The notes under the pieces: generated by a model
What the model was told of the DNA's origin: nothing
The model's database searches: none
Seen by the model: the letters and a program-made list of their open reading frames with translations, nothing else
In this document: piece by piece, positions 9,247 through 12,023 of the stretch
How the letters are laid out: each line of letters begins with the position of its first letter
How positions within the stretch are numbered: position 1 is the stretch's first letter
Source: Sphingobacterium thalpophilum
GTDB lineage: Bacteria; Bacteroidota; Bacteroidia; B-17B0; Aurantibacillaceae
DNA length: 37,092 nucleotides
Assembly: GCA_943325195.2 (NCBI GenBank)
Contig: CALPON020000014.1
Coordinates: forward strand, 1-37,092
Reading direction: 5' to 3'
Translations under genes and position numbers: made by a program

Positions 9247-9483
9247 TTAGTGACCGTGTCCTTCGTGTGATTCAGCAGGAGCAGCAGTTTCAGTAGTTGC
9301 TGCAGGAGCTGTAGAATCAGGAGTAGCTTCAGTGTTTTGCATTGACTCGCTAATAGATGCAGAAATTGAATCCTGGATAAATTTTGCGCGCTCTTCTAAT
9401 TTAGCTTTTTCTTCAGCAGAAGGACCACAAGCTACGAAAGTAGCTACAACAGCTACGGCGATAATAGAGAATACTTTTTTCAT
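9247..9483 (-). CDS. Small lipoprotein with Ala/Thr-rich, His-ending tail
   Basis: 78 residues. The signal peptide MKKVFSIIAVAVVATFVAC ends at a lipobox-like Cys19, followed by GPSAEEKAKL, a helix with RAKFIQDSI, and a low-complexity tail ending in HEGHGH. It is a paralogue of the 76-residue protein just downstream: the first 40 residues correspond closely and the tails differ. Such CGPS/CGPA mini-lipoproteins occur in Bacteroidota, but I know no assigned function. The His-rich end could bind metal, which is speculative. A strong terminator follows. Confidence 0.75.
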   Translation of the reverse strand: MKKVFSIIAVAVVATFVACGPSAEEKAKLEERAKFIQDSISASISESMQNTEATPDSTAPAATTETAAPAESHEGHGH

Positions 9484-9668
9484 TTTAGTCTAATGTTTTT
9501 GTTTTACATTCATTTATACCGGAACTTTAAAAAGGTCACCCGAAATTTTTTTATTTTTTTGTAAGATTTCACAATCAACTGATAATCAAACTAATAAAAA
9601 CAAATAAAACGAAGGTTACCTCTATTTTTTATACATTGGAAAGCAAAAACAGGTTACCTTTAAGACCA

Positions 9669-10280
9669 ATGGGTATTAATACAAACAACGGCAAGATGTC
9701 TGCACGCAGCCCTCAATTTACCGATCAGGAGTTTATTGATGGTCTGCGCACCTCTGACAGTATCGTCTTAACCGCTTTGTACAAGAAGTATTATCAACTC
9801 GTTCTTAAATTTGTTGTCAACAACAGTGGCTCTGAAGAAGCGGCCCGCGATATTTATCAGGAGGCTGTCATTGTCCTGTATGAAAATGCTTGCAAAGCGG
9901 ATTTCCAGCTGAGCTGCCAGCTTCAGACCTATCTGTACAGCATTGTCCGCCGCCTCTGGTTAAAAGAACTGCGTCACAAGGGAAAGACCAGCCTTTTTAA
10001 AGAGACGGAGGAGGAGGACCTGGTGGACGTGTCTGAAGAAACAGATGTGCACGCACAAAAAGAAGCGGAATACCAGCAACTCAGCAAAAGCATGAGCAGT
10101 CTTGGTGAACCGTGTGCCACGTTGCTGAGCGACTTCTACGTCCGCAAACTCAACATGGAAGCCATTGCTGAAAAATTTGGTTACACCAATGCTGACAACG
10201 CCAAGAACCAGAAATATAAATGTCTACAAAGACTGAAAAAGAATTTTTTTGAAACGAGTACCAACGCTACTGAAGACTGA
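9669..10280 (+). CDS. ECF-type RNA polymerase sigma factor
   Basis: About 203 residues from the ATG at 9669; a TTG at 9636 or the ATG at 9696 are alternatives. Region sigma-2 (about 30-90) includes the core-binding ARDIYQEAVIVLYENA and the -10 recognition part ending QTYLYSIVRRLWLKELR. An acidic linker (EETEEEDLVDVSEE) follows. Region sigma-4 (about 140-190) has a helix-turn-helix (MEAIAEKFGYTNADNAKNQK). The TNADNAKNQKYKCLQRLKK ending is typical of Bacteroidota ECF-like factors. Three bases after its stop begins a membrane protein that looks like an anti-sigma factor fused to a protease, so the pair is probably a signal-responsive module. Confidence 0.88.
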   Translation: MGINTNNGKMSARSPQFTDQEFIDGLRTSDSIVLTALYKKYYQLVLKFVVNNSGSEEAARDIYQEAVIVLYENACKADFQLSCQLQTYLYSIVRRLWLKELRHKGKTSLFKETEEEDLVDVSEETDVHAQKEAEYQQLSKSMSSLGEPCATLLSDFYVRKLNMEAIAEKFGYTNADNAKNQKYKCLQRLKKNFFETSTNATED

Positions 10281-10283
10281 ACG

Positions 10284-11381
10284 ATGAGAGTGACTGATTT
10301 ATTTGATGACTATCTGGAGGGAAGATTAATAGGAACTGAACGGATTGAATTTAAGTCCCGGCTCCTGAGCGATGCCACCTTTGCAACCGCATTTGAGGAG
10401 CACCGTCTCCTGATTGAGACCCTTCGTTCAGCCGCTTTGCGGGATGAGCTGAAGAATAAATTGCGGGCGATTCACGCCCGTGAGATTGGCAATGCAAAAG
10501 TCCTTCCCCTTCAAAAGAGTGAGAATTTTGCTCAGAAACACGCGCGTACTATTGCTGTGGCTGCCAGTACTGCCTTTATAGCTGTGCTAAGCACCGTGGC
10601 CATTCTCAGTGCCGGTGGTTACTTATTCAAGCAGCAAAGCAACCAGATTACCGATCTTAATCGCGTTGTGCGTGAGCTGAAGGCTTCCAGCGATGGTATC
10701 GTTCAGGGCATCCGCAAAACCAATACGACGCGAAAAGCAGCGTATGCGCCAGCCAACATTGAAGGCAGTGCTTTTGCACTCAATAATAAAGGATATATCC
10801 TGACCAGTTTCCACATGGTCAGTGGGGCGGATAGTATTTTTATTCAGAATGCGCAGACAGAGCGCAGCCTTACCCGGCTCATCTACTGCGATCCGAAATT
10901 GGATCTCGCGATTCTGAAAGTAGAAGACGAACAACAAACCAAAAACTGGCAGGTGCCTTTTAATCTGAAAGAAAAAAGCGCCGATATTGGAGAGAAGGTC
11001 TTTACCATGGGGTATCCCCGCCGCGACATGGTATATGGAGAGGGTTCCCTCAGCTCCATGAGCGGCTATTCCAATGATACCAGCATGTACCAAATTTCTA
11101 TCCCTGTCAACCCAGGCAATAGTGGGGGACCACTCCTCGATGAAGCAGGCAACGTGATTGGCGTGATTCGTGGTAAAATCTCAGGAGCAGAAGGCACCAG
11201 CTTTGCCATAAAAGCACAGGAAATCATCCGCAGCATTACGGATTCAGCAACCGACAGCCTCCGCATCCAGGTCCTCACACCAAGCAACCGTAAAAGTGGA
11301 CTGCGCAATATGAAGCGCTCTGACCAAGTGCGCAAAATCAATCCTTACGTCTTTAACGTGCTTATTTACAAAGGAGAATAA
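10284..11381 (+). CDS. Membrane protein: anti-sigma-like N-terminus, one TM helix, HtrA-like serine protease
   Basis: 365 residues. Residues 1-75 form a soluble, helical, Leu- and Arg/Glu-rich segment (LFDDYLEGRLIGTERIEF...) of the kind found at the start of single-pass anti-sigma factors. One transmembrane helix spans about 88-115, followed by a short coiled-coil-like part (116-135). Residues about 155-315 form a trypsin/HtrA-type protease with an intact triad: His177 (TSFHMVSGAD), Asp207 (PKLDLAILKV) and Ser280 (NPGNSGGPLL). No PDZ domain follows. The gene lies three bases downstream of the ECF sigma gene, so co-expression is near certain. My inference is that the N-terminus holds the sigma factor at the membrane and the protease acts in the periplasm, perhaps triggering its own or its partner's cleavage under stress. 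The direct motif evidence is strong; the regulatory role is inferred. Confidence 0.82.
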   Translation: MRVTDLFDDYLEGRLIGTERIEFKSRLLSDATFATAFEEHRLLIETLRSAALRDELKNKLRAIHAREIGNAKVLPLQKSENFAQKHARTIAVAASTAFIAVLSTVAILSAGGYLFKQQSNQITDLNRVVRELKASSDGIVQGIRKTNTTRKAAYAPANIEGSAFALNNKGYILTSFHMVSGADSIFIQNAQTERSLTRLIYCDPKLDLAILKVEDEQQTKNWQVPFNLKEKSADIGEKVFTMGYPRRDMVYGEGSLSSMSGYSNDTSMYQISIPVNPGNSGGPLLDEAGNVIGVIRGKISGAEGTSFAIKAQEIIRSITDSATDSLRIQVLTPSNRKSGLRNMKRSDQVRKINPYVFNVLIYKGE

Positions 11382-11585: not shown

Positions 11586-12023
11586 ATGTTCGAAATTCTT
11601 AAACATTTTGAGTCTAAGTACGGCACCTTGAAAAAAAAGGGGCTAAGAATTGAAGGACTGTCGATGATTGATCCGAAGCGTAAAAAACACGTGATAATGA
11701 TCTCCAAACCTTTCATTTTCGATAATCGCCAATTACCTAAAACGTATGAGGGACTCGACATTAAGGGGAAAATCGAAGGAGATCTTCCGAAAGAGTTTGC
11801 TATTAAAAAGGATGCCGCAAAAAAGGAATACGTGTGGACGCCAAGTCGTTTCGAGAAGTATGTGGACCGTTGCAGCGAAGAAATCCGCAAGCAATTTAAT
11901 AATCCGACGATGACCCGTCAGGATATGTTGGACGCGCTGGCCTTCGGAAATTTTGAAGAACACAAGAAGAAAAGTCTGCAGTTAATGAAAGACGGTAAAA
12001 TACCGCCTTTTAAAATGAACTAG
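11586..12023 (+). CDS. Conserved-looking hypothetical protein, cytosolic
   Basis: 145 residues, no signal peptide or membrane segment, rich in Lys (about one in six residues). It opens with MFEILKHFESKYGTL and contains the basic segments KKKGLRIEG and PKRKKHVIM, the strand-like IKGKIEGDLP, a WTPSRFEKYV segment, and a helical end with RQDMLDALAFGNFEEHKKK. I do not recognise the family. It is a single-gene unit with a possible promoter just upstream and a clear terminator downstream. The basic charge would fit nucleic-acid or ribosome association, but that is only a guess. Confidence 0.6.
   Translation: MFEILKHFESKYGTLKKKGLRIEGLSMIDPKRKKHVIMISKPFIFDNRQLPKTYEGLDIKGKIEGDLPKEFAIKKDAAKKEYVWTPSRFEKYVDRCSEEIRKQFNNPTMTRQDMLDALAFGNFEEHKKKSLQLMKDGKIPPFKMN

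Follow-up and report, generated by a model that had tools for sequence, protein, structure and literature searches.

An ECF sigma factor gene of Bacteroidia paired with a gene for a probable anti-sigma domain fused to an HtrA-type protease domain

Results

In the class Bacteroidia an ECF sigma factor gene is directly followed by a gene whose product carries, in a single chain, a probable non-zinc class I anti-sigma domain (ASDI), one transmembrane (TM) helix and an HtrA-type serine protease domain. We read this pair as an autoregulated, self-contained envelope-stress module in which the anti-sigma factor and a site-1-type protease are one chain, and assign this reading a probability of about 60%. 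The unit is described here from the window, the whole stretch of 37,092 nucleotides that was analysed (contig CALPON020000014.1), and from a set of 261 non-redundant sigma/fusion pairs from at least ten families of the class. The unit is real and conserved, and probably undescribed in detail; no description of an anti-sigma/HtrA fusion was found in the open-licence papers.

Organisation of the two-gene unit

An earlier note on this DNA had described an ECF sigma gene followed, after three nucleotides, by a protein of 365 residues with a soluble, anti-sigma-like N-terminus, a single TM helix and an HtrA-type protease having the triad H177, D207, S280 and no PDZ domain. The open reading frames, the HMM matches and the hydrophobicity profile agree with this anatomy, and the three catalytic residues were found at these positions. 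Only the start of the sigma gene had to be moved.

The sigma ORF has its stop at 10280, and the ORF of the fusion protein begins after the three-nucleotide gap (10284-11381, plus strand, 365 aa). The sigma product matches TIGR02937 (sigma70-ECF) at residues 35-192 with E 4e-19, and Pfam Sigma70_r2 with E 3e-10, which is at the Pfam cut-off. Region 4 has no Pfam match but lies within the TIGR02937 span. The product thus consists of regions 2 and 4 only, as is characteristic of the ECF sigma factors (group 4). The ATG at 9669, taken as the start in the earlier note, falls within a conserved promoter (9652-9679), and the sigma proteins of relatives begin at the position of the ATG at 9696 (MSARSPQFTD... 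in the window, MSKSKLQFTD... in a relative). Therefore the start was moved to 9696, which is most likely the true one, and the sigma gene occupies 9696-10280 (plus strand, 194 aa).

All parts of the fusion protein are given on the plus strand. Residues 1-85 (10284-10538) form the putative anti-sigma domain. They are followed by the TM helix (residues about 88-115, 10545-10628) and a periplasmic linker (residues 116-155, 10629-10748), which looks coiled-coil-like in the alignment by eye. The protease domain (residues 156-310, 10749-11213) was recognised by HMMs and by sequence matches in the PDB: the fusion matches Trypsin_2 at residues 161-294 (E 9e-23) and a Do/HtrA-family model (E 3e-23), and the nearest PDB entries of the domain by sequence are MucD (the best), AlgW and DegS. 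The codons of His177 (10812-10814), Asp207 (10902-10904) and Ser280 (11121-11123), the latter in a GNSGG motif, are invariant, so that the triad is intact in 261 of 261 fusions. No PDZ model of Pfam or NCBIfam matched the fusion, and approximately 55 residues remain after the protease domain. The triad and the GNSGG motif are those of the HtrA (S1C) proteases, but the PDZ domain of this family is absent, and therefore we speak of an HtrA-type protease domain and not of an HtrA protein. In the place where HtrA proteases have the PDZ domain, the alignments show a conserved C-terminal tail (residues 311-365, 11214-11378) with the consensus LKGLKR.EQIKKI.PYVF.VKVYK. The same consensus is present in two secreted relatives without a sigma neighbour (L141, L146).

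Each of the 261 relatives has one hydrophobic segment, situated near residue 93 on average, and none has a second one. The mean net charge of the flanks of this segment is +3.0 on the N side and +0.6 on the C side, the N side being the more positive in 88% of the 261 proteins. The positive-inside rule thus assigns the anti-sigma domain to the cytoplasm and the protease to the periplasm. As judged by charge, the protein therefore has the form of the anti-sigma factors subject to regulated intramembrane proteolysis, with a single TM helix and the N-terminus inside.

Conservation and distribution

The arrangement is intact in hundreds of Bacteroidia genomes. The genome of the window contains one full-length copy of the fusion. 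In its own family, which is the only family of its order, tblastn matches with E 1e-30 or better were observed in 80 of 87 genomes and in 61 of the 62 more complete ones. In two more deeply sampled families, matches at this level were observed in 104 of 111 and 105 of 108 more complete genomes, a few of these matches spanning the protease domain only. Full-length homologues were found in nine further families of the class, and in a phylum-wide draw all 28 matches outside the genome of the window belong to the same class.

A sigma gene lies directly upstream of every full-length homologue whose sequence extends upstream (58/58 and 120/120 in subsets). This is the opposite of what the earlier note had named as grounds for dropping its proposal, namely protease homologues that never lie beside ECF genes. 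In the sole apparent exception, L100, the contig starts only within the gene. The two genes overlap or are at most 30 nt apart in 245 of 261 pairs. The recurrence of this two-gene unit, always with an intact triad, in 261 non-redundant pairs excludes a chance association.

In one family (f68; L112, L113, L114) the fusion is approximately 30 residues shorter at the N-terminus, and the gap to the sigma gene is 65-94 nt in two of the three loci. A wrongly assigned start or a reduced anti-sigma domain may account for this. A separate observation concerns a 145-aa protein without a Pfam match, encoded at 11586-12023 (plus strand) of the window; it is found in the same place, just 3' of the fusion gene, in 11 related loci.

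The N-terminal domain

The N-terminus is best read, from profile matches and structural models, as a non-zinc class I anti-sigma domain; no single match is decisive, whereas the whole set is. When the N-termini of 100 relatives were compared with NCBIfam, the commonest match was NF052375, "antisigma" (27 of 100, best E 3e-5), followed by PRK13920, "putative anti-sigmaE" (10 of 100, best E 8e-6), and the commonest Pfam match was zf-HC2, a zinc-type anti-sigma domain (14 of 100), all three sets of matches being below the curated cut-offs. The N-terminus of the window's protein alone matched no Pfam or NCBIfam family at E 0.1, and the only match of this member to an anti-sigma profile (E 0.0065) was obtained with the full protein as the query. 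The sequence-profile match to anti-sigma families is thus one of the family as a whole. The zinc motif HxxxCxxC occurs in none of the 261 fusions, which places the domain in the non-zinc ASDI subtype. The position beside an ECF sigma gene, a mark of ASDIs, is common to all full-length homologues with upstream sequence. A profile search of the PDB with the N-terminus returned nuclear receptors only (E 0.02-0.03), which were judged to be chance matches between helical proteins.

The AlphaFold2 model of residues 1-90, built with 100 sequences, has a pLDDT of 88 and contains helices at residues 3-11, 17-29 and 31-67. Foldseek found only six matches to this model in the PDB, five of them anti-sigma chains (RslA three times, RsiW and RskA), with poor E-values of 2.8-6.4; the VIA-align score against RsiW is Z 6.2, and for helical bundles any Z below 13 counts as weak. 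The ASDI fold is a helical bundle, as seen in RsiW, RslA and RseA, and three-helix folds are common. It is the identity of the matched chains that points to an ASDI in this comparison of models, short of proof.

The motif YLxGxLxxxExxxFExxL of the domain is also present in L077, a membrane protein linked to an ECF gene in the same genome (hhalign probability 84%, E 7e-6). In that protein (L077:71-1243, minus strand) the anti-sigma-like motif is repeated before the TM helix, with two or three copies seen by eye.

One could suppose instead that the N-terminus, a helical domain on the cytoplasmic side, serves to anchor a membrane protease which merely shares an operon with the ECF gene. A short helical domain with a low conservation (29% mean column identity) and weak individual HMM scores would suit this role. 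However, anti-sigma models and folds dominate the matches, and the motif in L077 again leads to an ECF-linked protein. Moreover, there is no sigma neighbour beside the trypsin-like homologues without the N-terminal domain and TM helix (L141, L145, L146), whereas all homologues that possess them have one; the fused N-terminus and the sigma gene thus travel together. Finally, a pair of covarying charges, described below, connects the domain with region 2 of the sigma factor. We consider the anchor very improbable and retain the anti-sigma domain.

Contact with the sigma factor

As the sigma stop codon and the start of the fusion share a frame, the sigma factor and the domain were modelled as a single read-through chain. 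The AF2 model of this chain, made with 26 paired relatives, has a pLDDT of 82 and a pTM of 0.74, and all helices of both partners are confident. The model is compatible with a sigma-domain complex, short of proving one. A Foldseek search with it gave weak matches, led by sigma chains that had been solved with their anti-sigmas; these were set aside as providing no evidence on the interface.

In the DCA of the 261 pairs, compared with pairings reshuffled within clades, only the pair formed by sigma residue 75 (region 2) and domain residue 52 exceeds every null, and beyond this pair no coevolution was observed above the null. Lys or Arg at sigma 75 is paired with Asp or Glu at domain 52 in 84 cases, against 13 with a basic partner. 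With other residues at sigma 75, domain 52 is Lys, Arg or His in 46 cases, neutral in 54 and rarely Asp or Glu (12); Gln at sigma 75 goes with Lys, Gln or Arg. The scarcity of like charges has P 0.0014 when the pairs are reshuffled within 25 clades, and P of about 0.02-0.04 within the finest clades (74). When APC-corrected mutual information was computed between sigma factor and fusion, the N-terminal domain was not enriched. In mean-field DCA, 13 of the top 20 inter-protein pairs involve residues 1-85, against 4.7 expected. This regional enrichment was rejected, as much of it is reproduced by within-clade shuffles because the domain is variable.

Taken together, the HMM matches over the relatives, the predicted fold, the model of the sigma factor with the domain, the invariant gene pairing and the one coevolving residue pair uphold the proposal of the earlier note that an ECF sigma factor is accompanied here by an anti-sigma factor and an HtrA-type protease in one chain.

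Promoter and lipoprotein genes

The sigma operon is preceded by an ECF-type promoter-like site, GGTTAC-N16-TATTAA (9652-9679, plus strand), which is conserved in relatives. The pattern GGTTAC-N16/17-TATTAA was found 5' of the sigma gene in exact form in 204 of 261 pairs and with at most one mismatch in 249, in at least ten families, and not once in shuffled upstream regions. The spacing is 16 in 173 cases and 17 in 31. The site in the window is the only exact copy of GGTTACN{11,17}GTATTAA in its genome. Sigma-70 consensus promoters and terminators around the operon were not above chance.

A gene for a small lipoprotein is divergent from the sigma operon (9247-9483, minus strand). It encodes 78 aa, MKKVFSIIAVAVVATFVACGPS..., with a low-complexity tail, and has a candidate ECF-type promoter of its own, GGTGAC-N16-TATAAA (9513-9540, minus strand), a diverged copy of the motif of the sigma operon. 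A divergent short lipoprotein gene at a distance of at most 500 bp is present in 122 of the 155 loci with enough upstream DNA (median length 72 aa), and the promoter motif stands in front of 107 of these 122 genes. For comparison, lipobox-like starts occur in the background in 25 of 408 ORFs, and in 11 of 99 short ORFs. The conserved promoter and the divergent lipoprotein are additions to the earlier note, which had missed both.

Sites with two mismatches were no commoner than in the reversed-pattern control; they were therefore used in the conserved divergent position alone, and elsewhere one mismatch was the most allowed. Most of the other sites in relatives that have at most one mismatch and an ORF just downstream precede lipoproteins. 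Genes of DUF4349 lipoproteins lie just 3' of a promoter of this type in four genomes, including one that belongs to another family (L338, L339, L348 with one mismatch, and L385), and are likely, by this position, to be a second member of the regulon. Coiled-coil lipoproteins of 286 and 161 aa follow the same promoter type in L340 and L347. In L367, L370 and L381 the site does not precede a lipoprotein gene. In the first of these loci, which is from another family, a site with zero mismatches precedes a 96-aa protein resembling a carbohydrate-binding (AMPK/CBM48-like) module.

The genome of the window has at least 13 other sigma-70-type genes, and the GGTTAC promoter could answer to a different regulator, one with control over envelope lipoproteins and over this operon as well, rather than to the ECF sigma factor encoded in the operon. 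We consider this improbable, given that the site precedes the sigma operon in nearly all pairs across the families and that autoregulation is the usual rule for ECF operons. Recognition of the site by the ECF sigma factor of the pair is thus the reading that we follow.

Discussion

Proposed mechanism

The following scheme is suggested. The non-zinc class I anti-sigma domain (residues 1-85) very probably retains the ECF sigma factor at the inner membrane, and the chain almost certainly spans the membrane once, which places the HtrA-type serine protease in the periplasm. A signal related to periplasmic or outer-membrane lipoproteins might then activate the protease. The protease would make the first cut in the juxtamembrane linker, either within its own chain or in that of an adjacent copy, after which RseP would cut in the membrane and the sigma factor would be freed; this conjectural step falls a little short of even odds. 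A homologue of RseP (site-2 protease, PF02163) is present in the genome of the window (E 2.3e-51, G000:C23). Free sigma factor would, in all likelihood, recognise GGTTAC-N16/17-TATTAA and raise the expression of its own operon, and it would probably also raise that of a small set of lipoproteins, above all the small divergent one. It seems unlikely, if conceivable, that this small lipoprotein serves the protease as a ligand or as a feedback substrate.

That the protease cuts its own chain, and so triggers the loss of its own anti-sigma domain, is something that we only infer. A fuller version of the scheme is tentative and its chances are modest: the sensor, the site-1 protease and the anti-sigma factor would be one polypeptide, the protease would start intramembrane proteolysis by cutting its own or a sister chain, and the small lipoprotein, itself controlled by the sigma factor, would be a dedicated ligand or substrate reporting the state of lipoproteins or of the outer membrane.

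A substantial minority possibility is that the fusion is a real membrane anti-sigma factor whose protease is not the trigger. The protease would then be a housekeeping or feedback enzyme degrading misfolded proteins or the signal, and the sigma factor would be released by an external site-1 protease, by Clp, or by allostery on substrate binding. Indeed, the PDB entry closest to the domain by sequence is MucD, which is a housekeeping or feedback protease for AlgU. RseA of M. tuberculosis, which shares an operon with htrA, is phosphorylated and then destroyed by ClpC1P2 (PMC10027907), and the example of FoxR/FecR demonstrates that self-cleavage can be dispensable (PMC9249621). On the other hand, the protease is fused to the regulator rather than encoded by a separate gene, and its triad is invariant throughout the set, a closer link between catalysis and the regulator than a housekeeping role would call for. 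Thus we prefer the reading in which the protease serves as the site-1 enzyme of its own module.

ECF envelope-stress signalling normally requires a separate sensor protease. Here the whole periplasmic arm is apparently contained in one protein of a two-gene unit, which is conserved in nearly every sampled genome of three large families and in some members of at least seven others. The unit offers a minimal system in which to study what makes a protease that has no PDZ sensor cut a regulator, and, thanks to the near-invariant promoter and the lipoprotein targets, the regulon is open to direct tests in culturable Bacteroidota.

Comparison with known systems

The N-terminus resembles the class I anti-sigma domains in being a helical domain beside an ECF gene, followed by a TM helix, and the zinc motif is absent from it. 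According to a published survey of ASDIs, approximately 44% of them have no zinc motif, and ASDIs lie beside only 6% of Bacteroidetes ECFs (PMC7406223). A divergent non-zinc family like that of the fusion could therefore have been missed there, and the survey text consulted does not mention a Trypsin_2/HtrA fusion (PMC7406223).

An unusual C-terminal extension is likewise found in the Dma1-3 proteins of Bacteroides, membrane anti-sigma factors that are specific to the Bacteroidota and encoded beside an ECF gene (PMC13088901). However, in Dma proteins a long disordered tether leads to a terminal beta-barrel (PMC13088901), whereas the fusion ends in a protease. FoxR/FecR and RsgI of Clostridium thermocellum are anti-sigma factors of the membrane that can undergo cleavage inside their own chain ahead of RseP (PMC9249621; PMC12203970), as the fusion may do. 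The self-cleavage of FoxR is a non-enzymatic N-O acyl shift (PMC9249621), whereas the fusion has a complete serine protease domain.

The order sigma factor, anti-sigma factor, HtrA-type protease is also that of the M. tuberculosis locus sigE - rseA-htrA-tatB (PMC10027907). There the three are separate proteins, whereas here the anti-sigma factor and the protease are fused.

The closest systems in logic are sigmaE/RseA/DegS/RseP of E. coli and AlgU/MucA/AlgW/MucP of P. aeruginosa. Both have an ECF sigma factor, an anti-sigma factor with a single TM helix and a cytoplasmic domain, a periplasmic HtrA-type first protease, a role that the fused domain would play here, and RseP or a homologue of it, as is also encoded in the genome of the window. 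The PDZ domains of DegS and AlgW sense the signal, whereas the protease of the fusion has none. Compared with the sigmaE/RseA system, the conserved pair is not accompanied by an RseB-like gene, the anti-sigma factor and the HtrA-type protease share one chain, and the closely linked target is a small lipoprotein.
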